Assembly (NCBI GenBank): GCA_027186245.1
Contig: CP114489.1
Coordinates: 4,719,501-4,783,500, forward strand
Direction: 5' to 3'
Source: Coriaria nepalensis
Lineage: Eukaryota; Streptophyta; Magnoliopsida; Cucurbitales; Coriariaceae
DNA: 64,000 bases
Shown here: positions 5,678-41,817 of the stretch, in pieces
How the letters are laid out: every line of letters begins with the position of its first letter
Position numbering within the stretch: position 1 is the stretch's first letter
The notes under the pieces: generated by a model
Told to the model about the DNA's origin: nothing
Seen by the model: the letters and a program-made list of their open reading frames with translations, nothing else
Database searches by the model: none
Made by a program: the position numbers and the translations under genes

Positions 5678-5685
5678 GGATATGC
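5678..5685. promoter_or_regulatory. P1BS (PHR1-type) site GGATATGC upstream of MIR399 hairpin 1
   Basis: It matches the palindromic consensus GNATATNC bound by PHR1-family MYB-CC factors under phosphate starvation. It lies about 85 bp upstream of the 5p arm of hairpin 1, with a weak TATA-like cataaata at 5701-5708 between them. The motif is short and arises by chance in AT-rich DNA, so position rather than sequence gives it weight. Confidence 0.4.
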
Positions 5686-5739: not shown

Positions 5740-5885
5740 ATTGACTTGCAGTAGCATTACAGGGCAAGATCTCCATTGGCAGGCAGTTACTCACAGATAT
5801 GCGATTATACATTCATGATTCTTTTCTAGTGTGTTGTGCTCTGCCAAAGGAGATTTGCCCAGCAATGAGAGATCATCTGCAAATT
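5740..5885 (+). ncRNA. MIR399: MIR399 hairpin 1
   Basis: The precursor of microRNA399 represses PHO2/UBC24 mRNA during phosphate starvation. The 3p arm carries the 21-nt mature sequence at 5842-5862, beginning TGCCAAAGGAGATTTGCCC and ending AG, which is canonical miR399. The 5p arm at 5762-5782 reads GGGCAAGATCTCCATTGGCA and gives the expected star. Pairing continues outward (attac against gcaat, then gcag against ctgc at the base). The loop is about 60 nt. It is the first of six same-strand hairpins of this family. Confidence 0.92.
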
Positions 5886-7265
5886 TTCTCTCTAACATAA
5901 ATTTATGCTATACATTTCTATTCACCACCAATGTTTATGTCTTGCCAACAATTCCCTGTAATATTTCTTAGTAGCATCCGGTTTATGGTCAAATGTGTGT
6001 CTCGGCCAGCTACTTAAGTATGACTCTGCTTTCGCAACAATAATTCATATTGGTAAATATTATAATACTTACTGTCCAACTTAACCCAAAGTTTCGGTTT
6101 AACTAAAATGTTGTAGCCAAAACCATGGCAACCGGAATGTTGCATACATTTGTAACGTGATTCAACGAACTTGATCCAGGTCGTTCTATGGTACAACCGA
6201 TTCGGGCCTTTCTTCTGTTGGACAGGAAACTTGCATTGGCGTTATCGGTTTTAAGAAGATAGAGAGATATCATCCAAATAATTTCGAGATTATTCCGAAA
6301 TTACTATATAATCTAATTGTAGTCAAATCTCGTATTGACTTGATTCTGTTCAAATCCTTACCTTCGAGGATATGAGTTTGACGTGGTTGCTTTCTTTATG
6401 CAAGAAGTTTCTTTCTAAGCCGTCTTTTGAAATTGAAGATATAGTAAGGGAGGCATCATCATTAAATTGTGATAAATATAATGCCATTAAAGATACGCCC
6501 AAATTTGGTCCATGTTTTTGTTATATATATATATATATATATGTATGTATAAGAGCATAAAATCAAGCTCAAATTAAAGTTGTTCAAATCAAACACTTCA
6601 TATCAAAAGAGAATATGGGACCACTATCAAAATCCAGCCTCGAGTTTTTTCAAGCATAGAAATCAACTTTTGGTCCTCTACGCCATATGGGAAAGAATAG
6701 ATTAAGAATATGCTCTTGGATCTACCACAGTTTATCCTTCTTAACTTGCCCCCTCTTTTCTCAGATTCTCACCCTATAATATTGACTTCTAATTTCAGTA
6801 TCTTATACTCTCAAATCATATATAGCGTATTGCTATGATGTTTTTTCTTTTTTTATATACAAATATAAAATTATTCATTGTCATTTCACCATATAATGCA
6901 AATTATGTTTAACTAACACTATTATTATGAAAATAGCTATTGGAGAATGAAGTAACCATACAAATTGTCATATAGAACAATCAAAGATGTGAAAAGAGAC
7001 AAGTGTTGACCTACTGAGTACTTGAACAAGTTCTATGTACTTTGATCTGAAAGGAAATTTTTTTTTTAAAGTTTATTTATGAGTAATTAAGATTCTCTCA
7101 ATAAGAAAATCTCTACTTCATATATTCTAATAAATTGAGGAAGAGAGAATATCGTACCAAATAAAAAATGGAAGGTCTTAAACAACACTTAATAAGAAAG
7201 ATAGACTGTTTGATTAATTGTAAATTGATTTGAAGTTGAAAACCTAAATTTTTACAAATAGCTCC

Positions 7266-7304
<39 letters not shown>

Positions 7305-7584
7305 TAAGTGAGGTGTAGACTATAATAAATGTGGTGTAGACTCATTCATATACATAAGTTACGTGGACGTATATAGAATAATAAAAAATGAAAAATTGTT
7401 TGGACCAAAGAAATTTCTCTCTCTTGCTCTCTTTTTTATCTAGAATAAAGGGTTGGTGACTTACCCTCCCCATGTAGAAAACGGAGGTTTGTACTTTGTA
7501 CCATAAGATATGCTGGCTCAAGGCTACCCTTAAATAGTTGGGTCCTGACTCTCAAAATACCAACACTAGTACTAATTTCCTTCC
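5886..7584. other. Intergenic spacer between MIR399 hairpins 1 and 2
   Basis: No gene is recognised. It holds (AT)n runs at about 6522-6542 and 7266-7299, and a P1BS-consistent octamer GAATATGC at 6706-6713. A near-P1BS AGATATGC (first base wrong) at 7506-7513 is followed by a TATA-like ttaaatag at about 7530. The order of the last two elements relative to hairpin 2 resembles that at hairpin 1. Confidence 0.45.
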
Positions 7585-7735
7585 ATTGAAGTTGAATTAC
7601 AGGGCGAGTTCTCTATTGGCAGATCATGATCACTTAGAAATCGAGATGCAGAGGAGTCATCAGCTTTGCATTTCTATAGCTAGCGTGCCCTCTGCCAAAG
7701 GAGATTTGCCCAGCAATTCTCTGCATGCACATTGT
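7585..7735 (+). ncRNA. MIR399: MIR399 hairpin 2
   Basis: The 3p mature sequence at 7693-7713 is identical to that of hairpin 1 (TGCCAAAGGAGATTTGCCC plus AG). The 5p star at 7602-7622 starts GGGCGAGTTCTCTATTGGCA and pairs with it through the usual mismatches. The flanking tgaattac and gcaattct extend the stem. The loop is about 70 nt. The same mature sequence on a different star and loop suggests an old duplicate of hairpin 1 under selection for the mature arm. A short plus-strand ORF running through it is incidental. Confidence 0.92.
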
Positions 7736-7739
7736 TATC

Positions 7740-8130
7740 TACCATTAGGTGTCAAAACAGGCCGGCGGACACAGGCCCGACACGATTTGTTTTGAGACTG
7801 TTTATCAAAAGCTCAGTCAGGTACAGCCCATGTATTATATAGGCCGGCCTGTGCTGGGCCTAAAAGAAAAACCCTCCACAGGGCACGGCCAGAAGACCAG
7901 GAATGCCATACATGAGCCCAGGGGCGGAGCCAGGATTCCATTACAATGGGGCTCAACTTAAACTCTTATGAAAGGGAAATATCCGAAAATTAGAGGATGC
8001 GAGACAAAGCCCCACAATTCGGTAAAAATATATTATCAGGCTTTTTCATATTAAATATATTAAATATTTAATTTTAACACTCGCATTCTGTTTTAATGTG
8101 AGCCTAAAAGCTTTGAGAAATTTACAATTT
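7740..8130. mobile_element. GC-rich repeat followed by a hAT-like terminus
   Basis: 7750-7915 is unusually G/C-rich for this window, with ggcc words in both orientations (ggccggcg, taggccggcctg, gggcct). At 7919 the sequence caggggcggagccagga begins a stretch that also contains ggggctcaac. From memory this resembles the end of a plant hAT transposon related to TTF/MYM-type zinc-finger transposases. No matching opposite end was located, so it may be a truncated element. Confidence 0.35.
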
Positions 8131-9752
8131 AAACCTAAAAATTCAAAAAAAAAATTGTTTTAAGGAGAAATTCGAAGAACTAATAAGAAGAAGCAGAGTA
8201 GTACGTCCATCAAAGAATCAAAGAAAGATACCCTCAAACTATTAGCTTCTTATAAGGTGAAGAAAAAAATGGTGGAAAAGTTGCTTAATTTGCTATCACG
8301 GAGAGAAAGAACGAAAGCAACTAAAAATGGGTTTGGTTGGACAGAAAATATTCCTCGGAAAAGGAAAGTATGAAGACAGGATACTGATTTTTCTTTAAAT
8401 AAATAAATAAAACAGATCTCACTTAAGAAAGATGAAAGAAAAGTAAGAATGGAAGCTATTAATAGTAGGACTGTAGGGGATTGATGAAGAATAGATTGTA
8501 TCTAAACAACAGGAGTCTTCTTTCAAAATCAAAATGCTACTCTGCTTTTTAGGCACAAATCCATCAAATCCCTTTTCAATTACTATTATCTTTTCAAAGG
8601 CATTTAGCAAACAAGTGGTGGACAGAGAGGGATGCAGACGGACGATCAGAGACAACTGATAAGTATTCATGATACAATTAAGCATAAATTAAAAAAAAAA
8701 AAAATTAATTGTGTGAAAAACCGAACCGACAGATATGTACGTGTGGTAGACATGCCGCATTGAATCTCATAATATTGAATAAGTATGTATAGAGTCTTGA
8801 TGAGATGAAATAAAATAAAATTCATTTTTGACTATATTAAGCTTGTAAGTCATGTAAGAGAGTCTTGTATGGTGCCTTCAAGGTGCTGCACTTAATTTGA
8901 TATTAATCATTCATTAATCAGCTATAGACCTAAGGGTTTATATTTGATTGATATTCTAACTAATTTGTTATTTGTAAGCATGTAATGTAAGTGATCGCAA
9001 TATTCCAATTAGATCTAGTTATGGATACATAGGGGATACTAGTTTAAGTACTTTTTATGTTATTAAGAACACTTTGAGTTAAGTTTAACTAGTAAATATA
9101 TAGTTGGCTAAAAACACGTAGGATCATATTCTTCTAGAGGTAAGAAAATGAGTTATATGAAACATAACTACGAAAAATTATTTTGCTACCTTGCATGTGT
9201 ACTAAGGTTGGTTACTGATATATAAGACTAAAATATTCTTGTGGAAGTCCTTTTTCCCACTAGAAATTTTTTTTTTTCCAATACACATTAAAGGGTATTG
9301 TGCATTATAGAAAAAATAGTGGAAGTTAAACTAAAATTAAAATATCTCTTAATTCTATTTAAAAGTTGATAATATTTAAAAAAGTTGGTAATATTTCTTA
9401 ATTCCCGATAATCGGGAATTTTCCAGTATGACTCGGACCGGATCAAATGACCGATTAATTTGCCTTTTAAAAAAAAGTTAATATTTAAGTTAAAATTCAT
9501 GTAAGGAAATTATGTGAAATTTATTTAAAAACTAGGAACTAATTTGGGGTAAAAATGTAGCGCCAGCCTTATTAGTTATTTATTGAGGGAAATTATGAAT
9601 ATCTAGTAGGTGCATTACTTTCTTTTTCTTTACTTGAAATTCTTTTGTTTGCAGAAATACCGTAAAAATTTGAATTTTTCATACAATATTGCAGAAGTCT
9701 TTAGCATAAAGAATTAATCCCAAAACCTTTTTTAACACACTTCATTCTTTTC

Positions 9753-9755
<3 letters not shown>
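8131..9755. other. Spacer, nothing recognised
   Basis: AT-rich DNA with only short incidental ORFs on either strand. No RNA gene, element end or conserved protein word was seen. It ends at an (AT)n microsatellite at 9756-9787. Confidence 0.5.
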
Positions 9756-9789
<34 letters not shown>

Positions 9790-9889
9790 GTATACAATGA
9801 TAAGTTTTCTAGAAGATTCTTCAGTTTTACTTTTTTCACAGGTTATGTCATATATGTACAATCTCACGGGGGCGACCTCCTTCATTCGC

Positions 9890-10190
9890 TCGGACTTTAA
9901 CCTACCACTTTGCCTTTGTGATTCCCTACAACACAGGGTGAGCATCTATCTTCTATCTTACGGCTTCACCATAACCCCTTCATCAGGGGTTTGGCTTTAT
10001 TCTTGAGTCTCTTTTCTTTGTGATCCATAGTGTGTACCAGTCTTTCTTCATACGTCATATTTTCTTGGAGTTCAACGGGGTCAATCTCCAATACATGCGA
10101 GGGATCAGATACATAGTTTTTTCACGTGGATACATAGAATACATTGTATACAGAGGACATCTCTGACATTAGTACAAGCAGGCAACTTTG
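9890..10190 (-). mobile_element. Ty3/Gypsy integrase C-terminal (chromovirus-type) fragment
   Basis: Read on the minus strand, 10190 to 9930 gives Y-V-S-D-P-S-H-V-L-E, then L-Q-E-N-M-T-Y-E-E-R-L-V, then D-H-K-E-K-R-L-K-N-K, then P-L-M-K-G-L-W. This is the stretch after the integrase core and at the start of the chromodomain region of chromovirus Gypsy polyproteins (family pattern YVPDPSHVL...YEE...ILDRKE...LRNK...VLW). Stops and frameshifts follow. No other pol domains are attached. Confidence 0.65.
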
Positions 10191-10374
10191 CCGATACATT
10201 CTATTATTTCAAAAAGTCTAATATACACATGTGAACGTGAAACATAGTATGAATAGTCTATTTAAGGATAGCAATAAGTACGAGTAAAAGTCTGGGAGTG
10301 GAAGGATGTCGCTTATAGTATTAAATAAAGGAAATGTTAAATAATGCAGGCGTATTTGCAAGAAGCATTCAAGC

Positions 10375-10990
10375 CCAACTAAAATTTCAAGAACGAAATT
10401 TTTATAAAGAATGGAGAATGTAATCCCCCAATTTTTTTAAAATAGGCATAATAATTGAAAAATAAATTTAAATTAGACTTATTAGTAAATTTTAATTTTC
10501 ACCTATACATAATTTCAATAATAGAAATAATATGATATGAAATCCTTTTAGTAATTTTTAAATTTTAAAAAGATTTTATAATAATTTTTAAAATTTAAGA
10601 TGATTTAAATTTAAATATTAAAAAAAAAAGTCGCTAATGTGTCGAATGACACGTTAAGTGTCATCAAACACTTAATGATATGTCTTAAAAGAGACATGCA
10701 GACTAGATTAATGTCCTATTAATGTGTCACGCCCTTCCCTTTGCTATAAATAGGCCACGACCATTGAAAGAAATTCAATGAAAAAAAAAAGATAAATAAA
10801 TCAGCAAGAACAAAGAAAACGTGAGGGAGAGAATAAAGAAAGGAAAAGAAAGGAAAAGAAAGGAGAGAAAGGAAGAAAAGAAAATAAGAGGAAAAAGAAA
10901 ATTAGGAATTTTAAATTGTCAATCTTTTCTAAAGCCTTATAAGTATAGTCTTATTGCAACACATGAATAAAATGTTGTTTGTTTATTGTT
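10375..10990 (+). mobile_element. Probable Gypsy polypurine tract and start of a 3' LTR
   Basis: The words caagaacgaaatttttataa and atggagaa lead into tgtaatccccca at 10419. This is the layout at the pol end, polypurine tract and 3' LTR start of chromovirus Gypsy elements. A good TATA box (tataaatagg, 10745-10754) lies about 330 bp in, as expected for an LTR promoter. The right end is not defined and no second LTR was found. Orientation is opposite to the integrase fragment at 9890-10190, so these are two separate remnants. Confidence 0.5.
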
Positions 10991-11588
10991 ATGGTTAATT
11001 AAAATTATTATATTAATTGATGATAGTATTAATTATTAAGTATGTGACTTGTAGAAAATATTTATCCTGCTAAGATTATGTTAGGATTATGATTACAGCA
11101 CGTTATGTATAAATGAAATGATTTTATTACCATGATAGAAATAAGATTTATGACTAGTATGAACATAATGTAGTTTGATAGTTTAAGAATAGTATAAACT
11201 TTAAACATGCTACGATTAAATGCATATGTTCATATTTCTAGAAGTTAATGTGATGCTAAAATGAATCATAAGCGTACAAATACATAACATAAAAATGAGG
11301 TGTTGCTGAGTCAAAAGAATGATCATTTGTCGATAATAAGGAACCCCATATAGTTCTAAAAGAAAATGTCATAAGTGGATTGTTGCAATAGTCATAAGCG
11401 AACTGTTAATTTGATATCAGTTGAATTACCAATGGCAGAATCCTTCGGACCCAAGTATAAAGAAGGATAGAGAATCATTAATTCTAGATATAAGTCACAA
11501 AGGCATTAATTTAAGGTAATTATTAAAAGATTAAGACATATAAGTATTGCCTTACTAATCCTATCTTTATGTTCCAATAAGGCTATAC

Positions 11589-12170
11589 TTACATGTATTC
11601 ATGAAGCGCGTCCAACACTTCTTCCGGCATGGTATTCTTCTTAAGGAGGTGAATACCATCACCATCTCTCTTGTCAATCTTTCCGATTTTAGCCTTGTCT
11701 GTTATTGCAATACCATATATAAGTGCATTACTAAAATCATTTGTAAAAGAACTATGTTGGTTATTGATAGTCTTGTTAGCAAGAATCAATATGCTTTTAT
11801 TAGTTGGAGGCGTATAAGTGATAATATTCTCTTTTCCCAAGGTCTTGCATAGTTATCATCTAAATAGGGGTGCTCTAAAATGTGCTTCTAAAATTGACCT
11901 TATGAAAAACTATGATATGATTAGATGAGACCTTATTCAAAGGTTCCCGAGATTATTAATTTTCTGCTTATGTTTGTTTCTTGGATTATGGCTTGCATCA
12001 CTACTACCTCTTTTTCGGTTTCTCTTAATGGGGAGCTTATGGGGGTTTCTTTAAGAGTAATTGGAGTATTCAGCAGGGGACCCTATATTCCCTCCTATCT
12101 CTTTGTGATTTATATGAAAATTTGCTAGAGACTTCTTAATGGAAAGTTTTTGGTGTTAATCATAATTTCC
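11589..12170 (+). mobile_element. L1-type LINE reverse transcriptase remnant
   Basis: The plus strand encodes, with frame changes, V-N-T-I-T-I-S-L-V, then C-N-T-I-Y-K-C-I-T-K-I, then S-L-V-S-K-N-Q-Y-A-F-I-S-W-R-R-I-S-D-N-I-L. Further on come W-I-M-A-C-I-T-T-T-S-F-S-V-S-L-N-G-E-L and S-Y-L-F-V-I-Y-M-K-I. These follow conserved blocks of plant L1 reverse transcriptase in the correct order (CNTIYKCI, QSAFI-GR-ISDNIL, WI-AC-T--FS-S-NG). Key residues are changed (G to W before RRISDN) and the catalytic block is not seen. It is a dead 5'- and 3'-truncated copy. The ORF on the opposite strand is a shadow. Confidence 0.75.
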
Positions 12171-12914
12171 TCTTTTTTATATATTACTTACTTTCCAAAA
12201 AATAAAAATGTTATAGAAAGGGAATTATTAGTTCACTTCTAGCTTATCAAATACTATTGAATTTAACTCGATTATTTATCAAAACATGAAAAGAGTAATA
12301 TATAATAAATAAATAAATAAATATAAAAACGCAATGGCATGCACTTCAGGGAGAGTAGGATCGATTGCCCTTTTCTTTATTTACAAATCCATATAGATAT
12401 ATATATACTTAACCAAGGTCTGTTTAAGCTAAGAGGTCATAAAATCAAGCTTTTATACAAAAAGAAAGATTAAAAGTTTAATACTAATACTTAAATGCTA
12501 AAACTAAACATATTGATGAATGATAATTACACCATCATTCGACATAAACTTTTTAGAAGTTACCTGACAAAAAGATCTTTGGCCTAAAACAAAAAAAAAA
12601 AAAAACTGACAAAAAGATCTGATGACTTTGTTTTTCCAAATACCTAGTTTCACATCAGTTCATTGTTTTTATTTTTATTTATTTATTTATTTTATCTGGG
12701 TCTAAGATTTCGTATCTTACTCTCGGGCCCTAGGGCTAGGCCTTGGGCTATATACTGTATCTAGCACTTGTTTTTCCCGATCGTCATCTGCAATACTAAA
12801 GAACAAAAGTTAAAAATAAAATAAAATAAAAGGATACATATACTACTAGAGAGTAGTATCCGATTTCAGATCAGAATCACTCGAGACTTCAAAGATCGAT
12901 CAATATATGATACT
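12171..12914. other. Spacer upstream of MIR399 hairpin 3
   Basis: AT-rich, with no gene recognised. It has (aaat)n and (tttta)n low-complexity runs at about 12303-12325 and 12667-12694. A small palindrome (gatactactctctagtagtat on the minus strand) lies near 12841-12860, possibly in the pri-miRNA promoter or leader. No consensus P1BS site was found here. Confidence 0.4.
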
Positions 12915-13055
12915 TTGAAATTGAATGGCAGGGCAAGTCTCCTTTGGCAGAAAAGAATACAACACAAGTAATGAAGCACCCATAATGCAGCCATTATATG
13001 TATATCATGAACTTCTGCCGAAGGAGAGATGCACTGTCATTCTCAGTAACTTGTT
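12915..13055 (+). ncRNA. MIR399: MIR399-type hairpin 3 with altered mature arm
   Basis: The 5p arm at 12931-12951 begins GGGCAAGTCTCCTTTGGCAG, a standard miR399 star. The 3p arm at 13016-13036 begins TGCCGAAGGAGAGATGCACT. Pairing is good (aatggcag against ctgtcatt, then ctcctttggcag against ttctgccgaaggag). Compared with canonical miR399 the 3p sequence keeps the seed-like 5' part but differs at positions 5, 13-15 and 18. It could be a diverged family member or a decaying copy. It lies only about 100 nt upstream of hairpin 4 and may share its transcript. Confidence 0.8.
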
Positions 13056-13121
13056 AATCCCTTGCATCCTCCAAACTTATCATCAATCGCTAATATTGTT
13101 GCATGGATGCATGCATGCGTG

Positions 13122-13275
13122 GTAGCTTAGTTGAATAGCAGGGCAAGTCTCCTTTGGCCGAAACTATAGCACTAGATAATTAATATAGCTAGAGTTTGCA
13201 AATAATTATCAATTAATTACTACGCAACAGTTTCTGCCAAAGGAGAATTGCACTGTTATTCTTCTCTACCCATAT
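13122..13275 (+). ncRNA. MIR399: MIR399-type hairpin 4
   Basis: The 5p arm at 13141-13161 begins GGGCAAGTCTCCTTTGGCCG. The 3p arm at 13235-13255 begins TGCCAAAGGAGAATTGCACT. It is a miR399 mature sequence except for A instead of C at position 18. The stem is long and clean (ttgaatagcag against ctgttattc; ggccgaaact against agtttctgcc). The 105-nt gap to hairpin 3, the shared strand and the similar 5p arms indicate a tandem pair, probably on one primary transcript. Confidence 0.85.
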
Positions 13276-13790
13276 GAATTCCTAGCTGCTGGCTAGCGCT
13301 TTTGTTCTCGATCATGTTGTGAATAATTTGCCTTCAGGAAATTTTTATTTATATGAGTGATTCGGACATTTGAATAAGGATATGCCAGCTTGGGAAATGC
13401 ATAAGGGTTTATGCCATGGATCATTCCCCATTTGTATCGGCTCCTTTCTTTCACTTTTTTTTTTTATTCTTTTTTTTTCCTTCTTTTTTTTACTGTTTCG
13501 ATTATGGTGCAGAAATGGTCCCCTAGCTGTTTCATGGAATATATAGATTGTACATAAAATCTTGGATAAGAAGGCAAGTGTTTTTAGCTACAAAAGAACC
13601 AAATTTGTTTTTCCGTTAATTAAAATTATATTTTCCGGTATTTAAACGTATGTACTATTAATAGTATAATCTTACTCTGTTGATTCTAGCTTTCACGAGC
13701 TGAAGTTGTAATAATTTGTTTAGGAAGAAGTACTTAAATGTCAACCAAACACAGATACTAATAAATAAATAATGCACCTTCAGGCAACAA
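13276..13790. other. Spacer between MIR399 hairpin 4 and the tRNA
   Basis: No gene is recognised. It has a T-rich tract at 13455-13495 and a P1BS-consistent octamer GGATATGC at 13378-13385. That site is downstream of hairpin 4 and 1.1 kb upstream of hairpin 5, so no target can be assigned. Confidence 0.4.
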
Positions 13791-13807
13791 GCTGGAATAG
13801 CTCAGTT

Positions 13808-13840
<33 letters not shown>

Positions 13841-13864
13841 GAGGTTCCAGCCCTCCTTCTAGCG
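13791..13864 (+). tRNA. tRNA-Asn (GTT)
   Basis: It folds as a standard cloverleaf: acceptor stem GCTGGAA against TTCTAGC, D arm with AGTTGGTTA, anticodon arm with the loop CTGTTAA giving anticodon GTT (Asn), and T stem GGAGG against CCTCC. The discriminator is G and a T-rich stretch follows within 25 nt. The T loop reads TTCCAGC, whereas the usual plant sequence has a purine after TTC. This puts a C at position 57 and changes the internal B-box promoter, so expression may be reduced. Confidence 0.9.
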
Positions 13865-14464
13865 TTATTAATTGCATTTTCTTTAATCATTAATGTCTCA
13901 TATCATATTTTTTTTCTTGGACGGTAAAATTTCATGTCCTTTAAGAATGTTTCCTTCTAGAGTTTATTCATTTATTATTATTACGAAATCCATTCACTTT
14001 ATGTGTAAAATATATTTTATGTATGTATAGAGTGGTTTTCTTTCCATTTATATCATTCTCCAATCATATCCCATAGTTACTGTCCTTTTCTTGTCCCCTT
14101 CATTTGGTTTAGATGCATTTCTCTTAATACTCACTTCAAATTTGTATCAGAAACATAGACTCCCTCATTTATCATCTCTTACTTTCTTATTTTTCCGGCA
14201 CCAAATTAGTATCAATTTGAGAGGAGTCCAACCTATTTTAGACAGTTGCTCTCATTTGTAGTAGCATCTCATATTTTCCTGTAACGTTCTCATCATCCTA
14301 ATTCAAGATAGTATCGTCATAGTTGCATCCTAAATTCCCCTTTATATCGCCTATCGACCTTTCATTCTCTCGCCTGATCTCTAATCTCCCATAAGGAGAT
14401 TATGCACAATAAGAAGCAGTAGTCAGTAGAGAGTGAAAGTCTCTTAAATTAGGCAGTAATTGAT
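13865..14464. other. Spacer upstream of MIR399 hairpin 5
   Basis: No gene is recognised. A TATA-like ctttatat at about 14339-14346 sits roughly 130 bp upstream of hairpin 5 and could be its core promoter. No P1BS site was seen in this interval. Confidence 0.35.
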
Positions 14465-14585
14465 TGAGAGAATGGCAGGGCAATTCTCCTTTGGCAAAGA
14501 ACACAGCATGCAATTATACATGAACCTTGCACGTGCAATTTTGTTCCTTCGCCAAAGAGAACTCCCCTGTTATTCCTCAACCACA
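14465..14585 (+). ncRNA. MIR399: MIR399-type hairpin 5 with decayed 3p arm
   Basis: The 5p arm at 14478-14498 begins GGGCAATTCTCCTTTGGCAA, an intact miR399 star-type sequence. The 3p arm at 14549-14569 begins TCGCCAAAGAGAACTCCCCT. Against the family it has lost one G of the AAGG run and carries other changes. The fold persists, with outer pairing aatggcag against ctgttatt, but the mature arm would not match PHO2-type sites well. Two P1BS-consistent octamers (GGATATGC at 14722-14729, GTATATGC at 14747-14754) lie downstream. Confidence 0.7.
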
Positions 14586-14999
14586 TGAAATATGTAGATT
14601 TCTGTCTCCTGCTAAGATTTTTTTACTTGAATTCCTACGCATTCTTGAGTCGCTGCATACAGCTAAACAGCCACCATGCACCATCCCATTTTATGGTATA
14701 CAATGATTCGCACCTTGACTTGGATATGCTGTTCAAAACTCCAATAGTATATGCCAGTACAATTCCAAGCACATCCAGAACCGATCTCTTTTCAATTTTC
14801 ATGATCTTATTCTTACAACGTTATATGGTAGTCCCCAGTTAGTCCTAACTCTCCAATCGTTTATTGAATCAAATGGAATATATTCTACGTACGTACGTGC
14901 CAATGCGAGATACCCTACTGTTGTATCGGCCCCTAGTCTTGTGACTCTCTTGTCAATTCTTGATCAATCTAACTTTTGCATTAGCATTTTGGAATCAGG

Positions 15000-17040
15000 A
15001 GGCCAGCTAGCTAGTTATAAAGTGCGTGGCACTTTTCATTAGCTATAAGATTTTATGAAACCTGGTTTAATATCCATTTTATCTCCACGACTCGCGAAAG
15101 GACTTTTTAGTTGGTCTCTACCTCATAAAATAAACTAAGAAAACTAGGATTTACACGAGAAACTTTGGTTAATGATCTTAACTCTTTGAAAATAAAATAA
15201 AGTTGGGATTAATCCTTAAATATTTGGTGAATTGGTACTTCAAGTTACGCTTAAACTATTTCTGACATTGTCCTTCCACTTTTATCTCACCGCCACAACT
15301 ACTATTACCACCATTTCGACCACCGTTACTATAACTATCTCTATCATTCCGCCTTTATCACTAATACTCTAACCGACATCAGATATTCTATCATCTACCA
15401 ACCTTTCCACCAACATTTTTCTTACCACTCTCTGCACCGTTATGGTTGCTGTCGTTGCTTCAACCATTGACCACAGTTCTTGTGAGTGGTAGAGTCAAGA
15501 TATGTCAATGGTGGAGGCTAATTACCTAAAACAAATTTAGTACGCATATTACAAAAAATTTCTAAAATCTGTATTCAAATCTTATTGCTATAATTATATT
15601 AAAAGTGACAAATTGATAGATACAAATACTTGTAAAGTATTACAACTTATAAAAGTAGGAAAAAATGGTTATACAAAAATATTAAGATAAAATAAAAATA
15701 ATCAAAACACTAAATGTTTACAATCTTTCCTTTTGAGTATGCATATTTTGAAACACATGCAAGATGGATTCAGTTTCAATTATTGTAAATGTCTTTCTCA
15801 ATAAAAGTGACCAAACAATTATCCATTCATTAATCTCTCCTTCGATTATGCAAATGGTTCTTCAAAATCTTCATAGCAGAGAAAATGTTTTTCACAGTTA
15901 CAATTGCCACTGGTAATATTAAAACTAGTTTCAGCAAGTATGCTCTTTAAATATTGTCTCATTTATTAAAATGATAATCTGAAATTTTAGTTTGTAAGTC
16001 AATATCTGAAGAAAAATCATCCAACTGAACCAACTCTATGACATTTTTTTATCATTGCATCTTCAATAGCATCTTGACTATTCTTCTCTTAAACTGAAAG
16101 ATTTTATCCATCGTTGATTTTCTCTTGAAATACTTTTTCATAGTTAAATTTAATTACTAATCAAAACTCAATTTCTCTGCAAATCACACAAAACACGTCC
16201 ACAAATTCAAATTCAATTTCAATTTCAATTTCCCTGAGGCTCACAAAAATCAATTAGTAGAATTCTAAATTAACTAATAGTTTAAGGTAGTACTGATTAA
16301 ACTATTGTAACCACAATCATAAAAAGACAAAACATACTTTTATCTATACATTTTTTTATCTTATATACCTATATTTTACTTTTATTTTCATTAGAAAAGT
16401 CACCCATGATTAAGCCGTCTGAATTTTATTCTCATCAAATTCTATCATTCCTAATTCATTTCTAGATTTTGTTTAAACCCTATCATTTTCAAGAATAATG
16501 AGTTGTACATAAAAAGAACCATAATGTCGAATGGTGGAAATAATTGTGATCAGAATGGCGAACTTACATAATGATGGTGGAGACAGTAGGTAAGGGAGAT
16601 GTTGGTGAAACAATGATGAGGGTTTGAATGATAGTGTCTTAGTGACAATGGTAAGATAATGAGGATTAAGGGTGGATGAAGAAAATATTTTAAGGGCGGG
16701 TAAAAAAAGTAAGGATTGCATATACATAATTTCTTTCTTTTTTCTTATTATTTTTTATTTTTTATTTAACTTAAAGAAAAAACATTAAGAAAATTAAAAA
16801 TGCGATTGTACAAAAATAAACATTTGGAGACTAATTTATTTTAAACCTTTAGATATGTGGGTATATGTATTACCATACTAGAAATATTGAATTTTAATAA
16901 GGATGGAGAAATATGCATAATAAACAAAAATTTACGATAATATTTTGTAACAAAAAAATTTAAATAAGAAAAAAAAATCTATGATAAAGTTTTTGGGGCT
17001 CATTTTAATTTTCCCTGAAACCAAACACAAAAATATAATT
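15000..17040 (-). mobile_element. hAT transposon remnant (transposase dimerisation domain at 15719-15960)
   Basis: On the minus strand, 15960 to 15719 reads L-V-L-I-L-P-V-A, then F-S-A-M-K-I-L-K-N-H-L-H-N-R, then D-N-C-L-V-T-F-I-E-K-D-I. This is the C-terminal dimerisation region of hAT transposases of the TTF-zinc-finger class (family pattern LPVATASVERAFSAMKI-K--LRN...L-D-L---IEKDIF). Stops interrupt it. Toward 17000 the words ggggctcatttt and ttccctg look like a hAT end (CAGGG on the minus strand). Cca/tgg-rich low-complexity DNA lies at both flanks (15285-15480, 16540-16690). Outer limits are approximate; no target duplication was identified. Confidence 0.6.
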
Positions 17041-17657
17041 TGAACTCAATAAATTTGACCTGAATTGACTAAAATTAGAATATCAATGCCAATTCCAATT
17101 CCAATTCTAATTCCAATTCCAAGAACAAAAAGCACACAACATTCATAGGATTTCATTATAGTCTAAACGGTAAATGTAACTTAAGAAAGGAAAAGACTAA
17201 AGTGAGGAAAATAATGCATGAACGATCTAAAAGCACACTTATAAGATCCCACAGAATGTGCTCTCTTGAATTCTTTTGTTTTTTTTCTTAAAAAAAAAAA
17301 TTATATGAGCACTTTCTTAGAAACAAATTTTGTCCCTCTTGTACATATCTAGTACAAAATATGTATAGTTGGAATAACCATGCGTTCTTCTTGGAGTTAG
17401 TTACGTACGTAAAAACCCATGGAAGAAAAAAAAAAATAGGGGGGGAAAAAGAATTGGCACCCATTAATTTGCGTTAAATATTTTGAAAGCAACCTTTTGC
17501 TTTCCCTCTAAGGAATTGAATCAACGATGGATTAACAGGCAAGCATGCTGGTTTAGTATGCAAGCTGCAAAAGTACTAGGTAGTGCCTTGGAAATGCATG
17601 CAACACATGCAGTAACATGAACATATGGAGATCATATATTATTATCGATTAAGACAT
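17041..17657. other. Spacer upstream of MIR399 hairpin 6
   Basis: No gene is recognised. It contains a short imperfect (ccaatt)n-like stretch around 17087-17120. The rest is AT-rich. Confidence 0.4.
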
Positions 17658-17665
17658 GCATATGC
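17658..17665. promoter_or_regulatory. P1BS site GCATATGC, distal, MIR399 hairpin 6
   Basis: It matches GNATATNC exactly. It is about 140 bp upstream of the TATA box at 17799 and 216 bp upstream of the 5p arm of hairpin 6. It is one of two sites in the right order relative to a TATA box and a canonical miR399 hairpin. Confidence 0.5.
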
Positions 17666-17744
17666 AAAAGTGTATAAGTCCACACAGCAGGAGGACCACT
17701 TGCTCTATACGAATTACAGGTCAGTCGCCAGAGGATGTGCTAGA

Positions 17745-17752
17745 GAATATGC
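17745..17752. promoter_or_regulatory. P1BS site GAATATGC, proximal, MIR399 hairpin 6
   Basis: It matches GNATATNC exactly. It lies about 54 bp upstream of the TATA box at 17799. Paired P1BS sites just upstream of the TATA are consistent with induction by PHR1 under phosphate starvation, by analogy with known MIR399 promoters. Confidence 0.5.
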
Positions 17753-17797
17753 TTGATCTCTCTGCCCATTAACTGCACTTACGAGTTTTCTCAGTCC

Positions 17798-17807
17798 CTA
17801 TATATAC
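17798..17807 (+). promoter_or_regulatory. TATA box of MIR399 hairpin 6
   Basis: The sequence ctatatatac sits about 60 bp upstream of the hairpin base, leaving room for transcription to start near 17830-17840 and still include the whole stem. Confidence 0.5.
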
Positions 17808-17857
17808 ATGAAGATATTATGACTGCAAGTCCCAATTAAGTAAGCATGTACAATCTA

Positions 17858-17962
17858 GTGTAGATGCATTACTGGGCGATTACTCCTCTGGCAGTCAGCA
17901 AATAGCATCAGATGCAGGCTCACTGCCAAAGGAGATTTGCCCGGCAATACATGGTCTCTATT
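17858..17962 (+). ncRNA. MIR399: MIR399 hairpin 6 (miR399f-type mature sequence)
   Basis: The 3p mature sequence at 17924-17944 begins TGCCAAAGGAGATTTGCCC and ends GG, the form I know from Arabidopsis miR399f. The 5p arm at 17874-17894 begins GGGCGATTACTCCTCTGGCA and pairs with one bulge. The outer stem is gcattac against gcaatac. The loop is short (about 29 nt), so this is the most compact hairpin of the cluster. It also has the best promoter arrangement (two P1BS sites and a TATA box). Confidence 0.92.
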
Positions 17963-26700: not shown

Positions 26701-27221
26701 CCGCGAGCTTCAAATTTAGGGATTTGGATCTTTTTCTTTAATAAATTCCGCCACATAGCAGATGGCTCCGATCAGCATGAGGGGTCGCCTCTAACATACT
26801 GGGCATGTTTTGATTCAATAGAATACCAGCTGGCAGAAGTGGTAAGTGCTACTATGCCAGAATTTCTCCAGTCAGAAAGAATGTCGTTGGTTTTATTAGT
26901 TTGGCTTGCATTCATGATTATTATGTCGATTAAGTAGACTCAGTTTAAGATAATAAAAAATGTTTGATTCGACAACATTCAGTTTAGACTCGGAAAATTA
27001 ATTAAACGCGTTTGATTGTGGTTTAAGTATCTATTCACCCTCTTGAGATGTAAATCCGACATTGCCTAAGGTTAAAGACTTGGAAGTTGCAGCCAAAAAC
27101 CTTGACCCTTTTCCCCACATCACTTTCATTTTTTAGGACAAAAACCAGCTGTAATCTTAACACACTTCAAGCTCACTTCCACTTAGCTAAGCTCACTACC
27201 CACTTCTCTCCCTCCTCAACC

Positions 27222-28520
27222 ATGAAACCACGGCCACAAGCTTTTCTCCTCACTCTCCTCCTCCTCTTTTCCGCCGCTTCCCCCGCCGTTCCTCGACCAC
27301 TCTCCCCCACTCCTGCGCCAACTTCCTCCCCATCACCAAACAAAACCACTCCCGCCACGTCATCATCTTCCTCAACTCTCGACCCAAAACAACTTAGGGC
27401 CCTCCAATCTCTCAACATCCCCACCTCAAGAGACCCATGCATTCGGCCTTCCTTTCACAACGCCACCGATTGCGATTTCTCCAAGCCATTCCGCCACCTC
27501 ACCTCACTCCTCCTCGTCAACTGCTCAGACGACGTCGCTTTGTCCTTCACGGCCCTCAAATCCCTCTCCACCCTCCACACACTTCAGTTCCTCAATTGCC
27601 CCATTTCCCCTATCCGCTTCCCTTCCGAACTCATCTCTTCCCTCCGCTCCTTCTCCGCCGTTAACAGCCTCCGGAGGCTCTCCGGTGTCTGGCTCAGCCG
27701 CCTCCAAAACATCACCGATCTAACCGTTTCCAACGTCCCTGTCTCTGCCTCTGGCCCTTATGTAATTGTAGGCAACATGAAATTTCTCCAGTCCTTAGTC
27801 ATTTCTCACGCAAATCTTACCGGATCTATCCCTAAACACCTCAATCTCAATCTTACCCACATTGATTTTTCCGGCAATAAGCTCGAAGGAAAAATACCCA
27901 GTTCGATTACACTTCTCGAAAACCTCGAATATCTAAATCTGTCCTCTAATTCACTCAATGGAGAAATACCCATTTCAATTGGTGACCTGATGTCCCTTCA
28001 AAATCTCTCCTTTGCCTCGAATTCTCTTTCCGGATCCATCCCTGAATCAATGTCAGCCATTCCGGGACTACTTCACTTAGACCTGAGCTCAAACCAGTTT
28101 AATGGGACGATCCCGAGATTCATTTCGGAAATGAAGAGCTTGAAGTACTTAAATCTCGAAAACAATGCGTTCCATGGGATTATGCCTTTTAATGGATCGT
28201 TTCTGAAGAGATTGGTTGTGTTCAAGATAGGTGGGAATAGTAATTTATGTTATAACCATTCAAGTTTGTCATCAAAATTGAAGCTTGGGATTGCTCCCTG
28301 TGATAAGCATGGCTTGCCTATGTCCCCACCTCCGGCTAAGGACGACTCAACTTCGGATGATAGTGGCAGTGATTATGATGATGATGATGAGGATGATACG
28401 AGTAAGAAGAAAGATCACCATCATGGGCCTAATAAGGTAGTTCTTGGAGTTGCAATCGGGCTTTCTTCTATTGTGTTCCTCATTGTTTTCTTAGTTCTTC
28501 TATCAAAGTGGTGTGGTTGA
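27222..28520 (+). CDS. RLP51: LRR receptor-like protein, RLP51/SNC2-RLP55 type
   Basis: A single-exon gene of 432 aa. I chose the ATG at 27222 over the in-frame one at 27087 because it starts a clean signal peptide ([20 protein letters not shown]) and gives the length of Arabidopsis RLP51 (about 431 aa). Order: signal peptide; a Pro/Ser/Thr-rich linker (about residues 27-70); an N-terminal cap with paired Cys; about six to eight LRRs with the plant L-x-x-L-x-x-N-x-L-x-G-x-I-P pattern (residues 190-365); an acidic stalk (about 395-415); a KKKDHHH patch; one membrane segment near 410-430; and a tail of only about four residues (K-W-C-G). There is no kinase, so it must signal through partners. 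The membrane segment starts G-V-A-I-G, a GxxxG motif. In Arabidopsis this family is linked to immunity (SNC2). Confidence 0.88.
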
Positions 28521-35855: not shown

Positions 35856-35924
35856 TATGTCCAGTAATGCAGTTTAGCTGCCTTCGTCCATAATCAATTT
35901 TTTTTTCCCTGGAAACAGTGGAAT

Positions 35925-38900
35925 ATGGGAAAAACTAGCTTACTCTTTTTCCCTACGGTGCTTCTATTTGCACAGTTTATTGTCATTAACTCTGCTATGA
36001 CTGTGGAAAGCATCACCGCCGATCAATTGGCTCTCCTTACTTTCAAATCCCACATCACTCTGGATCCACTTAATATCTTAGCCAACAATTGGACTAACTC
36101 AAGCTCATCATGCAACTGGATTGGTGTCACTTGTGGCTCTCGCCATAGAAGAGTGACGAGCTTAGAACTTGCTGACATGGGTCTTGGAGGCAGCATTCCT
36201 CCCCATTTGGGGAACCTCTCATTCCTTCGTGTCCTTAATCTTACTGGAAACAATTTCCGTGGACATCTTCCGACCAATTTAATGAGCTTGCGCCAACTGA
36301 AGTTGATCGATTTGAGGTACAACGATTTTACTGGCAGCATTCCACAATGGTTTGGAGATTTATCAGAATTGCGTTTTTTGGGCCTTCAAAATAACAGTTT
36401 CAGTGGTACTGTCCCATGTTTTCTGTTCAACGCATCAAAGTTGGAGACTTTGAACTTGGCTTTTAATTTCATTGAAGGAAACATCCCATATGAGATTGGC
36501 AAGCTTCGAATGCTTCATGAATTGGTAATAACTGGCAACCGATTTTCAGGATCTATACCCTCGTCACTCTTCAATATTTCCTCACTCCAAATACTCGGTG
36601 CAGCAAATAATAGTTTGTCTGGTACTCTTCCGGATGATACATGCAACTACCTTCTTGAACTCAATTCCCTTAGCTTGTCGGGCAATGAGTTAAGTGGCAA
36701 TCTTCCTTCAAGTTTAGACAAATGCGACAAACTTCAAATGTTAAGTTTGTCAGTAAATAAATTTACAGGACCCATACCAAGGGGTGTTGGAAATTTAACA
36801 AATCTTAAGGAACTGTATCTCGATTTGAACTACTTAAGGTCAGGTATGTGCCCTCATTCACACGTAATTATACATTATATGCTCGTGTCTTTAGTGATTC
36901 CGGTGATTAAGAATGTCGTCGCTATTGACTTTGCAGAGATTCCAAATGAGATTGGTAATTTATTAGAGTTGGAGTTGTTGCATCTTGGATCCAATAGCAT
37001 ATCGGGAATGATTCCGTCTTTCCTGTTTAATATGTCCTCTTTAAGGGCATTGGGCCTTCAAAGAAACAACTTGTCTGGTGCTCTTCCTATCAATATATAT
37101 CTCAATGTTCTTGAATGGATAAATCTTGATACTAATCAACTCAGTGGAAGCATACCCGCAAGTATTGGTAACATGACCCGGCTAAAACAGATTGGACTTG
37201 GAAACAACAAATTGGCAGGTATACTTACATTTATAAAACTTAATAATACGAATAATATCTTTAAATGATATTTTGTGTACATTGTGACAGGGATAATACC
37301 TCAAGAACTTAGTTATCTTCAGAATCTAGAATTTTTATCGCTGACGGAGAATAGAATGATTGGTCAAATTCCATCCTCGATTTTCAACCTATCAAAATTA
37401 GTAGTCCTTAGCCTATCATTCAATATGCTCTCAGGTGGTCTCCCATCAAACATGGGCATTGGTCTTCCAAATCTTGAGGGATTCAGTATAGCATTTAATA
37501 ACATCAATGGAGTTATTCCTGATCATATCTCCAATGCTTCGAAGCTTACTATTCTGGATGCTCAAGAAAACTTATTATTTGGCGTGATTCCCTCCAGCTT
37601 ACGCAATTTAATCCACCTCCAGTGGCTTAGTCTAAGGTCTAACAATCTTACCATTGAATCTCCATCTACTACAAGCGGAGGCTTCTTTAATTTTCTATCA
37701 AACCTTCGACATTTGAGAATGTTGGATTTATCAGAAAATCCATTGGGTAGTGCATTCCCCAATTCCTTAGCTAATCTCTCTACATCACTTCAACAATTGT
37801 TTATTTATTATTCATCAATGAATGGTCGCATCCCAGAAGATATTGGTAACTTAAGTTCCTTGACGAAACTGAACTTGAAAGGCAACAATTTTATCGGAAA
37901 AATCCCAATATCAATTGGTAGAACACAACTCCAAGGTTTTAATCTTGGAAATAATAGCTTAGAAGGAAACATCCCTAACGAGCTTTGTCAAATGAAGAGA
38001 TTATTTAGTTTATCGTTAACTAACAATAAGCTTTCTGGATCAATTCCTTCTTGCTTTGCTAATCTCACAAACCTGAGATATATCTCTTTAGGGTCTAACA
38101 ACTTAAACTCCACTATCCCCTCCACATTTTGGAGCTTGATGTATATCCTCAGTGTAAACTTTTCATCCAATTTTCTTGAGGGATCTCTTCCAGGAGAAGT
38201 TGGAAATCTAAAGGTGTTGACCGATATAGATCTATCCAACAATCACTTATCTAGTTACATTCCAAGTAGTATTACAGGCCTTAAAGATTTATCTTATCTC
38301 TCATTAGCCCAAAATAAACTAGAAGGCCTCATTCCTAAAGCAATCGGTGATCTAGTGAGTTTGGAAACTTTGGATCTATCTGGTAATGAGTTATATGGTG
38401 AAATTCCCAAGTCATTGGAAAAGCTTTCTCATCTCAAATATTTAAATGTTTCATTCAACAAGCTACGAGGAGAGATTCCAAGTGAAGGTCCCTTTGTTAA
38501 CTTCTCTAGTCAATCCTTTTTGGGAAACGATGGGCTGTGTAGTGCTACCAGACTTCAATTTATCCCACTTTGCAAAGGGGATCGAACATCAACAAAAATG
38601 ACAGAAATCTTTCTTAGATATATCCTTCCTCCAATCTTGCTAAGTATGCTCATTATCATGATACTCGTTTGGAGATTTCAAATAAGAAAGCAAGGGAATC
38701 ATGTCGAGGTCAAGACAAGTTTGTTGCCTCTAACAACACGAAGTAGAATCACGTATCATGAGATAGCAAGAGCAACAAATGAGTTTAGAGAAAGCAATCT
38801 ACTTGGTTCGGGGAGTTTTGGGTCAGTCTACAAAGCAATGTTCTCAGATGAAACAATTGTTGCGGTAAAGGTTTTCAAAATAAAAGAAGAAGATGATCAA

Positions 38901-39764
38901 GGGTCCAGGAGCTTTGATATTGAATGTGAATTACTAAAACGTATTCGGCACCGAAATCTTATCAAAATTATTACTAGTTGCAGTAATAATCTTGACTTCA
39001 AAGCCATAGTGCTAGAATACATGCCAAATGGAAGCCTTGAGAAGTGGTTGTATCTCACCGATCACTACTTAAATATCCTTCAAAAGTTGAATATAGTGAT
39101 TGACGTTGCATCAGCTCTAGAATATCTTCATCATGGCTATTCGATACCTATTGTACACTGTGATTTGAAACCGAGTAATGTATTGCTCGATGGAGATATG
39201 GTCGCACATTTGACAGATTTTGGGATTGCAAAACTCTTGGGTGAAGGTCATTCTATTACACGAACCATGACCTTGTCCACTATTGGATATATGGCTCCAG
39301 GTGATGTGCTTTATTCTATATATAGTGAACATACTTCATTTTTTTATTTTAACCACTAATGGATTAAATAGCTCCATTTTTTTTTTTAAATATGATAAAA
39401 TGTGTTCTTACTGCGAGCAGAGTTTGGATTGGAAGGAACTGTTTCGACAAAAGGAGATGTATACAGCTATGGCATACTCCTCATGCAAACCTTCACAGAA
39501 AAGAAGCCCACAGATGAAATGTTTGGCGGAGAATTAGATTTGGTTCACTGGGTGAAGCAGTCATTTCCCCATGCAATATTCCATGAAGTTGTGAACCCCA
39601 AATTGCTGATAGGCTCGGAAAACATGTCCAGTATGGAAGAATGTGTATCGATGGTTTTAGAATTGGCATTGGCTTGTTGTGCAGAATCACCAGGAGAAAG
39701 GATAACTATGAAACATGTCTCAACTGCACTGCACAAGATCAAACTCAAATTCCTCTGCAATTAG
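35925..39764 (+). CDS. LRR-XII receptor-like kinase 1 (non-RD)
   Basis: Four exons, 35925-36843, 36937-37218, 37291-39300 and 39421-39764, give 3555 nt, which is 1184 aa. Intron 1 is open in frame, but its splice sites match those of kinase 2, where it contains a stop. Order: signal peptide (residues 1-24); N-terminal cap (D-Q-L-A-L-L-T-F-K then S-C-N-W-I-G-V-T-C); more than 25 LRRs (about 75-800); C-terminal cap; membrane segment about 841-863; kinase about 900-1180. The glycine loop is G-S-G-S-F-G, with Lys927, H-C-D-L-K-P-S-N at 1023-1030 and DFG at 1043-1045. Cys precedes the catalytic Asp1025, so it is non-RD, as in FLS2, EFR and Xa21. Likely a plasma-membrane immune or pattern receptor of the At3g47570 type; ligand unknown. 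Confidence 0.92.
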
Positions 39765-40439: not shown

Positions 40440-41817
40440 TCACCAACATAGGACGACCACTTCCAGAGAGCTTGTGAGTTCAAACATTGTCAAGGAGCCA
40501 AGATCCTTGCTTTTTTCAATTGTATCAATCTTGGAATCAAATTTAGAAGGCACACTAATAAGTATTTTGTCAACCATCATCTTCTTTGTGACCTTCTCTC
40601 CAAGATTCTTCATTTGATTTGAGACTTACATCATTCTACTAGCATAGTCTTTGATGGACTTGGAATCCTTTGTCTTCAATCTCTCAAGATCCCTTTTGAG
40701 GTTCAAGAGTATAATGCTCCTAACTCTTTCAGTTCCCTGAAATTCTTTCTTCATAGCATCTCGGGCTCCTTTGGCATTCTCTAACCCAATAATCTGAGAG
40801 AACATCTTGTCTTCAATTGCAGATTGGATTAAAGCCAAAGCTCTGTAATTGTTCTGTTTCCCATTCTTCTGTTGCTTGATCTGCTCCAGTGTGTAGTCTA
40901 CCTCCTCCGATGATGGAGCATAGCCATCCTCCACTGTCTCCCAGAGTTCACGAGCATGAAAATAAGTGGTCATTTTGGCATACCAGAACTGATACCTTCA
41001 TCGCTGAAAACTGATGGTAAAAGTATGTTAACATCTTGATTAGGGGCCATGATATTTCTTTCATATTTTTTTTTTTTTTTTTGGCTTTAGTTTGGGAACT
41101 AACTAGTGAGAATGATATTATTTTTTATTTTTCTCTGTTATCTTGTTAGAATTAGAGGACAAAAACTCAGTTTTGTCTCTCAAGTGTAAGAAGAACATAT
41201 TTGAGCAACAAATCAAAGAGAGAAAGAAAGTTCTGCTGGAAAAGTTTCTTACTAATTTCATTAAACATAAATCAAATTTGAATACAAACATAAAGCCAGA
41301 TTAAAGTACATAAACAGTAGTCCATTATACGGGCACTCTAAACTAAGATTAAAACTTACAATCAACTAATGATCTATACCTTAATATCATCAAAAGACAG
41401 CTAAACAAATTGACTCACTTTTGACTTAGATCTAAGTTTTCGAACACTTTTACATGTGCAAGTGGATCCCTAGAGGCCAAAAAGGCCAAAAATAATCAGC
41501 AGCTTCCAATCTTCACAAGCAGCTCCAACACCACCATTGTGTCATCATATCAAACTTGCTTGAACACAAAAACTAGTCGTTGGAAAGCATTAAAACATAA
41601 TTTAGCTCTAAACCGGAAAAACAGAACAGTGTAGGCAGATGAGGCTCCATCTTGACTTCTACTGATCCGATCAATGTGAAACTTGTTCCTACGAGTTCTA
41701 ATTGATCTTGGAAAGTTTTTAGCTGGAGAGTCGATGCTAAAAAGTGATCCAATCAAAAAGTAAACTTTTTGGATCTTCATCCTCCATTAATGAGCAGAAT
41801 GATCAATTCTTCAAACA
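40440..41817 (-). mobile_element. Copia element fragment: 5' LTR (41144-41817) and gag
   Basis: The minus strand carries a probable 674-bp LTR beginning TG at 41817 and ending CA at 41144 (TGTTTGAAGAATT at one end, AATTCTAACA at the other). A degenerate primer-binding site (about 8 of 11 positions of TGGTATCAGAG) follows. Gag comes next: M-T-T-Y-F-H-A-R-E-L-W-E-T-V-E-D-G-Y-A-P, and further on K-D-Y-A-S-R-M. This is a UBN2-type Copia gag. A frameshift lies near 40985 and coding similarity ends by about 40440. No protease, integrase, RT or second LTR is present. It sits just past exon 3 of the RPL11 duplicate. Confidence 0.75.

Follow-up and report, generated by a model that had tools for sequence, protein, structure and literature searches.

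A mixed-orientation cluster of six MIR399 hairpins in the genome of Coriaria nepalensis, with paralogous clusters and PHO2-type genes in the same assembly

Six hairpins of MIR399, the gene family of miR399, a small RNA known from plants deprived of phosphate, lie within about 12 kb of contig C9 of Coriaria nepalensis. We analysed the 64-kb stretch C9:4719501-4783500 (hereafter, the window) of a 316-Mb assembly of 20 contigs, of which those named below are labelled C1, C5, C6 and C9. The hairpins, numbered H1 to H6 by window position, occupy both strands in the order H1+ H2+ H3- H4- H5- H6+ (written ++---+), and none of them is decayed as a hairpin. We consider it very likely that they are six MIR399 genes forming five presumed units (H1 plus, H2 plus, H4-H3 minus, H5 minus and H6 plus), which would be driven by PHR1 and would provide a graded supply of the microRNA (miRNA) miR399 that silences PHO2. 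The cluster looks functional and has duplicated relatives in the same genome; it illustrates a known kind well without being unusual.

Between positions 5770 and 17935, the core TGCCAAAGGAGA was found nine times with 0 or 1 mismatch, both strands counted. When up to 2 mismatches were allowed, the whole window contained 21 matches, compared with 5.8 expected by chance (standard deviation 2.5), and none of 100 shuffles reached 21. A covariance-model search with Rfam RF00445 (MIR399; family cut-off 57 bits) matched six places, each on both strands and each with one better-scoring strand, on which scores ranged from 53.5 to 72.2 bits and E values from 3.9e-15 to 1.2e-9. Five hairpins exceeded the cut-off (H1 65.6, H2 72.2, H3 62.8, H4 69.6 and H6 71.0 bits). 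Candidate extra copies at core matches elsewhere in the window (40765-, 56196- and others) were dropped, as Rfam gave no MIR399 match at E ≤1 outside the six places. All six hairpins folded as single stems of low energy, with z scores between -5.1 and -8.3 on the better strands. Core matches, RF00445 and folding thus agree with a preliminary description of this DNA that had placed six MIR399-type stem-loops at these sites. In a miRNA hairpin, which should be a single stem, no more than 5 positions of the duplex are expected to be mismatched, and H1 to H6 all lie within this limit: among 19 mature positions, one is unpaired in H1 and in H2, two in H5 and in H6, three in H4 and four in H3. On the better strand, the MIR399 mature consensus of the 3p arm, TGCCAAAGGAGANTTGCCCNG, is matched exactly by five of the six, and H4 departs from it at position 1 alone; H1 and H2 have an identical mature 3p 21-mer, TGCCAAAGGAGATTTGCCCAG. 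The elements of the cluster, including PHR1-binding sites (P1BS), are the following, negative numbers giving the distance upstream of the hairpin.

5678..5685, unstranded: P1BS GGATATGC at -72 of H1, with TATA-like CATAAAT at -49.
5750..5872, plus strand: H1, MIR399 hairpin; 65.6 bits on plus vs 50.9 on minus; z -5.1; mature 3p TGCCAAAGGAGATTTGCCCAG at 5842-5862.
7506..7513, unstranded: one-mismatch P1BS AGATATGC at -84 of H2, with TATA-like TTAAATA at -60.
7590..7723, plus strand: H2, MIR399 hairpin; 72.2 bits on plus vs 45.6 on minus; z -5.3; mature 3p TGCCAAAGGAGATTTGCCCAG at 7693-7713.
12919..13046, minus strand: H3, MIR399 hairpin, probably the second member of a dicistronic pair; 62.8 bits on minus vs 50.4 on plus; mature 3p TGCCAAAGGAGACTTGCCCTG at 12949-12929.
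13129..13265, minus strand: H4, MIR399 hairpin, the first member of this probable pair; 69.6 bits on minus vs 62.0 on plus; 3p 21-mer GGCCAAAGGAGACTTGCCCTG at 13159-13139, with no 5′ U.
13378..13385, unstranded: P1BS (GCATATCC in sense) at -120 of H4, with TATAAAT at -88; presumably the H4-H3 promoter.
14466..14579, minus strand: H5, MIR399-type hairpin; 53.5 bits on minus vs 42.0 on plus; z -6.3; mature 3p TGCCAAAGGAGAATTGCCCTG at 14496-14476.
14722..14754, unstranded: two P1BS upstream of H5 (in sense, GCATATCC at -150 and GCATATAC at -175), with TATA-like CATAAAA at -116.
17658..17752, unstranded: two P1BS upstream of H6 (GCATATGC at -204 and GAATATGC at -117), with TATATAT at -63.
17862..17954, plus strand: H6, MIR399 hairpin; 71.0 bits on plus vs 52.7 on minus; z -5.7; mature 3p TGCCAAAGGAGATTTGCCCGG at 17924-17944.

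The preliminary description had put all six hairpins on one strand and had counted three canonical members, two variants and one decayed. Neither statement holds. The covariance-model scores favour ++---+ at six of six hairpins, and the P1BS positions and a duplicated block on C6, in which five of the six hairpins have partners, agree with this order; the count had come from reading the three minus-strand hairpins (H3, H4 and H5) on plus. The member described as decayed, H5, carries the canonical miR399 21-mer TGCCAAAGGAGAATTGCCCTG on its minus strand. Folding, which had been suggested as a check, could not reveal the strand error because both strands fold well: the opposite strands gave z scores from -3.6 to -8.1, which overlap those of the better strands, and folding energy was discarded as a strand test.

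P1BS is the PHR1-binding site, with consensus GNATATNC (PMC2936532, PMC7941915). The window contains 16 such sites, which were counted after the order ++---+ had been fixed from Rfam. A site was present within 250 nt upstream of four of the six hairpins and within 250 nt downstream of none, against a background of 5.5% of 250-nt windows (binomial P = 1.3e-4, a statistic in which H3 and H4 are not independent). When the 64 possible strand assignments were ranked by the number of hairpins with a site within 250 nt and then within 1000 nt, ++---+ came first, three others tying with it at 250 nt. In H1, H4, H5 and H6 the distance from the nearest P1BS to a TATA-like box downstream of it is some 23-54 nt. 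The C6 duplicate of H2 has the consensus GGATATGC at -84 and TTAAATA at -60, the same distances as in H2. As a separate observation, the proximal P1BS of H2 is one base off the consensus and that of its C6 duplicate is intact, so that regulatory divergence after duplication is possible. Genome-wide, a P1BS lies no more than 250 nt upstream of 13 of 21 hairpins, and of a further C6 remnant as well, compared with 6.9% of 250-nt windows in the pooled stretches.

The suggested link to PHO2/UBC24 is supported by the same genome, in which arrays of the reverse core led us to three PHO2/UBC24-type genes, on C1 near 916 kb, on C5 near 12.144 Mb and on C6 near 5.679 Mb. The UBE2O-type SH3 and UQ_con domains were confirmed in the C1 and C6 genes, and the C5 gene was identified by visibly similar open reading frames (ORFs). 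Each gene has four miR399 sites upstream of its first long ORF (12 in total, further degenerate sites omitted), presumably in the 5′ untranslated region. In the C6 gene (5675000-5684900) the ORFs are, by eye, more different than those of the other two, and one of its sites has a C opposite position 13, which pairs with the G of a dispersed GTTGCCC class of miR399. Pairing was scored as a position-weighted penalty, taking the best of the eight C1 and C5 sites. The penalties of the better strands were 0.5 for H1 and H2, 1.0 for H6, 3.5 for H3 and H5 and 4.5 for H4; those of the opposite strands were 5.5 (H1), 9.5 (H2), 9.0 (H6), 6.5 (H3), 12.0 (H5) and 4.5 (H4). Pairing therefore supports the better strand for five hairpins, H4 giving a tie. 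The four C6 sites left the ranking unchanged for the forms tried, that is, all except the opposite strands of H1, H2, H5 and H6. At all 12 sites, the H3, H4 and H5 forms mismatch position 13. The hairpins thus form two pairing classes: H1, H2 and H6 pair almost perfectly with the best sites (a strong class), and H3, H4 and H5 are perhaps weaker. A separate target for the H3 class was considered and rejected: the complement of H3 at up to 3 mismatches occurs at 29 sites in the genome (control 0), all of them in MIR399 hairpins or PHO2-type arrays.

With RF00445 over the whole genome, the best candidates being scored, we found at least 15 distinct places above the cut-off and six below it, H5 among the latter. 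A pattern search added a C6 remnant of 33.3 bits, which brings the total to 22 candidate hairpins; this number and that of the three PHO2-type genes are lower bounds. Since six of the 22 lie in the window and the others elsewhere, the earlier suggestion that this locus might determine how the species responds to phosphate starvation goes too far. Exact cores number 62 genome-wide (reversed-pattern control 25), and the 38 outside MIR399 hairpins and PHO2-type arrays look like chance occurrences, with agreement at 0-3 of the 7 tail positions. Seventeen of the candidates fall into four clusters, with six on C9, five on C6, three on C1 and three on C5. C6 is collinear piecewise with window positions 6031-7745 (part of which matches C6 twice) and 12421-14001, at 72-88% identity except in one short piece, and it also matches around H6 (78% over 341 columns). 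The C6 hairpins, in the order ++--+, provide partners for H1, H2, H3, H4 and H6, five of the six hairpins thus retaining their strand order; no partner of H5 was found in the C6 block. For a DUF1685 gene to the right of the window cluster, a relative with the Pfam domain adjoins the C1 cluster, and blastn gave matches next to the C5 copies. The three C5 copies (11676603, 11684355 and 11692109) are spaced at about 7.75 kb, have DUF1685-like pieces nearby and look like a tandem triplication; two of them carry CGCCAAAGG in place of TGCCAAAGG.

A tree was built from 21 of the hairpins, all but the C6 remnant. In it, a branch with support 100/99 splits 16 clustered from 5 dispersed hairpins; the finer order is unsure, with 8 of 17 inner branches weak and long branches meeting. 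H3, C6.3 and C1.c have an identical 21-mer in the minus-strand 3p arm and differ at 0-5 of 23 positions in the 5p arm, and H4, C6.4 and C1.b differ at 0-1 of 21 positions in the 3p arm and at 1-3 of 23 in the 5p arm. Judging from these alignments, the minus-strand 3p arm is the better conserved one in the H3 and H4 paralogs, as would be expected of a mature miRNA. The exceptions to 3p conservation are two dispersed pairs (1 vs 0 and 2 vs 1 differences, 3p vs 5p), H4-C1.b (1 vs 1) and H1-C6.1, in which the 3p 21-mer differs at 3 of 21 places.

H4 and H3 lie on the same strand only 82 nt apart, and their paralogous pairs are 71 nt apart on C6 and 85 nt apart on C1. Neither a P1BS nor a TATA-like box was found in the 82-nt gap, which led us to propose a dicistron: H4 and H3 probably form one dicistronic unit, and the pair recurs in two paralogous loci (three loci in all). 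The paralogs prefer the strand assigned to H4 (C6.4, 61.9 vs 52.4 bits; C1.b, 73.3 vs 57.0 bits). The 3p products of H4 type start without a 5′ U, with GGCC in H4 and C6.4 and AGCC in C1.b. One could go further and regard the grades as deliberate, strong PHO2-matching forms coming from H1, H2 and H6 and a conserved dicistronic H4-H3 brake being kept in three duplicated loci. In that case, the H4 product, lacking a 5′ U, would load into a different Argonaute or dampen. We hold this elaboration to be improbable.

From these elements we infer how the locus would work. Low phosphate would activate PHR1-type factors, which would bind the P1BS just upstream of a TATA-like box, and primary transcripts would start shortly before each hairpin, those of H4 and H3 together. 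Dicing would free a 21-nt miR399 from the 3p arm, and this miR399 would cleave the PHO2/UBC24 mRNA at the sites upstream of its ORF, so that phosphate uptake would rise. The locus may give graded miR399, strong from H1, H2 and H6 and perhaps weaker from H3, H4 and H5. It would have arisen by local duplication and inversion, with duplicated blocks on other contigs.

Several observations speak against this account or parts of it. H5 scores below the Rfam cut-off (53.5 bits, E 1.2e-9, vs 57), and it was named MIR399-type on its 21-mer, its duplex and its P1BS rather than on the Rfam threshold. Both strands of H4 score above the cut-off (69.6 bits on minus, 62.0 on plus), they tie at the best of the eight C1 and C5 sites, the mean over these sites slightly favours plus (5.06 vs 5.19), and the tie is exact over the four C6 sites; moreover, exact searches of the literature in RNA and DNA letters did not find the minus-strand 21-mer of H4. 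At the promoters, the nearest exact P1BS of H2 is at -884, with none within 250 nt; H3 has no P1BS of its own and presumably uses that of H4, at -339 from H3; in C5.1-C5.3 the P1BS is downstream, at 35-42 nt, and the 250 nt upstream contain none; and the TATA-like pattern is loose, with no null behind it. The gap of the C1 pair contains TATAAAT before C1.c, so this pair could be two units. The partnership of H1 and C6.1 is by order and orientation, blastn giving no alignment and both being long unresolved branches of the tree. Finally, soybean miR399 also cleaves the mRNA of a phosphate transporter (PMC3673897), and PHO2 need not be the sole target.

We weighed three other explanations. The layout of the preliminary description, with all six hairpins on the plus strand and one decayed, agrees with the similar energy of the six plus-strand folds, and the plus form of H4 scores above the cut-off (62.0 bits), starts with a 5′ U and equals the minus form in its pairing with PHO2. 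Against it, Rfam prefers the minus strand by 12.4 bits for H3, 7.6 for H4 and 11.5 for H5; the nearest upstream P1BS would be at 6205 nt (H3), 6415 nt (H4) and 1080 nt (H5); the pairing penalties against PHO2 are high for the plus strands of H3 and H5 (6.5 and 12.0); and it is the minus-strand 3p arm that the H3 and H4 paralogs conserve better. We rejected this layout because of the Rfam scores, the positions of the P1BS, the pairing with PHO2 (the H4 tie excepted) and the conservation between paralogs, and we give it almost no credence. It is scarcely more credible that some hairpins are sense-antisense MIR399 pairs, transcribed and diced from both strands, with H3 or H4 giving two miRNAs. 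H4 does pass the cut-off on both strands, as do C1.a, C1.b and C1.c, but near-palindromic stems routinely fold on both strands, no hairpin has a P1BS within 250 nt on its downstream side, and exact searches of the literature (RNA and DNA letters) found neither the plus-strand 21-mers of H3 and H4 nor the minus-strand one of H4.

A partly silent cluster, in which duplicated hairpins have lost expression, is unlikely too, though it has the most to recommend it among these alternatives. The proximal P1BS of H2 (one base off the consensus, which is intact in its C6 duplicate), the visibly altered C6 partners of H1 and H6, and the 5′ U missing from H4 would all fit such a loss. On the other side stand six paralog comparisons involving H3, H4 or H6, with 0-1 differences among the 21 places of the 3p 21-mer and 6-32 in the loop. 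We therefore retain as very likely the reading of six MIR399 genes in five presumed units.

Published mature forms match those of the window. Most papers matched by exact searches for six miR399 forms contain the H5 21-mer TGCCAAAGGAGAATTGCCCTG: 18 of 23 with RNA letters and 12 of 16 with DNA letters. It is given for grapevine MIR399A and H (PMC2822795, replaced by the full-length correction PMC2831844, which shows it twice) and for soybean miR399C1 (PMC4214822), the 5p arm of which, as listed there, differs from that of H4 on the minus strand at one of 21 places. Among the papers listed, the minus-strand form of H3 appears in one, on Lilium (PMC5811567), and the H1/H2 form TGCCAAAGGAGATTTGCCCAG recurs in the literature, for example in soybean.

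That MIR399 clusters are known in plants, as had been stated beforehand, is borne out by published soybean clusters. Arabidopsis has the MIR399d-f cluster. The soybean genome releases used in the two papers compared here presumably share their coordinates. According to the first, soybean miR399a, b and e lie within 34958613-34967778 (9.2 kb) of Gm05 and c and d on Gm08, all on the minus strand; the mature miR399a-d sequence it gives is TGCCAAAGGAGATTTGCCCAG, identical to that of H1 and H2; and miR399a-d are described as phosphate (Pi)-induced, with PHO2 cleavage detected by rapid amplification of cDNA ends (PMC3673897). The table of the second adds members listed on the plus strand at Gm05 34951411-34951523 and Gm08 9114310-9114422 (PMC4214822); for these two, a TGCC sequence stands under the miRNA-5p column of the table, and the strand entry may be unreliable. 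Unlike the window, with six members and the close H4-H3 pair, these table rows give four members on Gm05 and three on Gm08 and contain no close pair. Merchan et al. (2009, PMC2812943) count miR399 as one of the families for which homologous clusters were already known and describe a bias of short-range plant miRNA clustering to one strand that suggests co-transcription; the homologous clusters of less than 10 kb that their text reports as their own are of miR166, miR169 and miR395, and the window cluster differs in its mixed overall orientation. The window resembles the PHR1-miR399-PHO2 system and the MIR399 family (RF00445) in its hairpin model, its 3p mature sequence, the P1BS upstream of most units and the presence in the same genome of PHO2-type genes whose ORF is preceded by several complementary sites. 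It differs in the H4 type without a 5′ U, the position-13 mismatch of H3, H4 and H5, and the score of H5 under the cut-off.

Other features of the window were also recorded. A tRNA-Asn (GTT) gene lies within the cluster between H4 and H5 (13791-13864, plus strand); its collinear C6 copy (7433-7506 of the C6 stretch) reads as tRNA-Lys (CTT), with 61 of 74 bases identical, a difference that is probably due to decay of one copy and may instead be an anticodon change. A weak snoMe28S-Am982 match at 12508-12575, plus strand (33.9 bits vs a cut-off of 49), is likely due to chance. To the right of the cluster, an open frame at 27054-28520, plus strand, resembles receptor-like protein 51 (RLP51), with 64-79% identity among the best 120 of 1232 proteins. 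Two tandem leucine-rich-repeat receptor-kinase-like genes (35868-39764 and 44995-48869, both plus strand) are alike by eye and each split into several open stretches; near them are Copia-type gag-like open frames at 40626-40997 and 52096-52548, both on the minus strand.

Taken together, the results correct strand and integrity for half of the cluster, on both of which annotation, primer and knock-out design depend. The understanding of the pathway is unchanged by the cluster. The analysis provides a MIR399-PHO2 parts list for one genome, with 22 candidate hairpins and three PHO2-type genes, and a testable case of the divergence of duplicated miRNA genes in the H2 promoter site, the position-13 class split and the conserved close pair.

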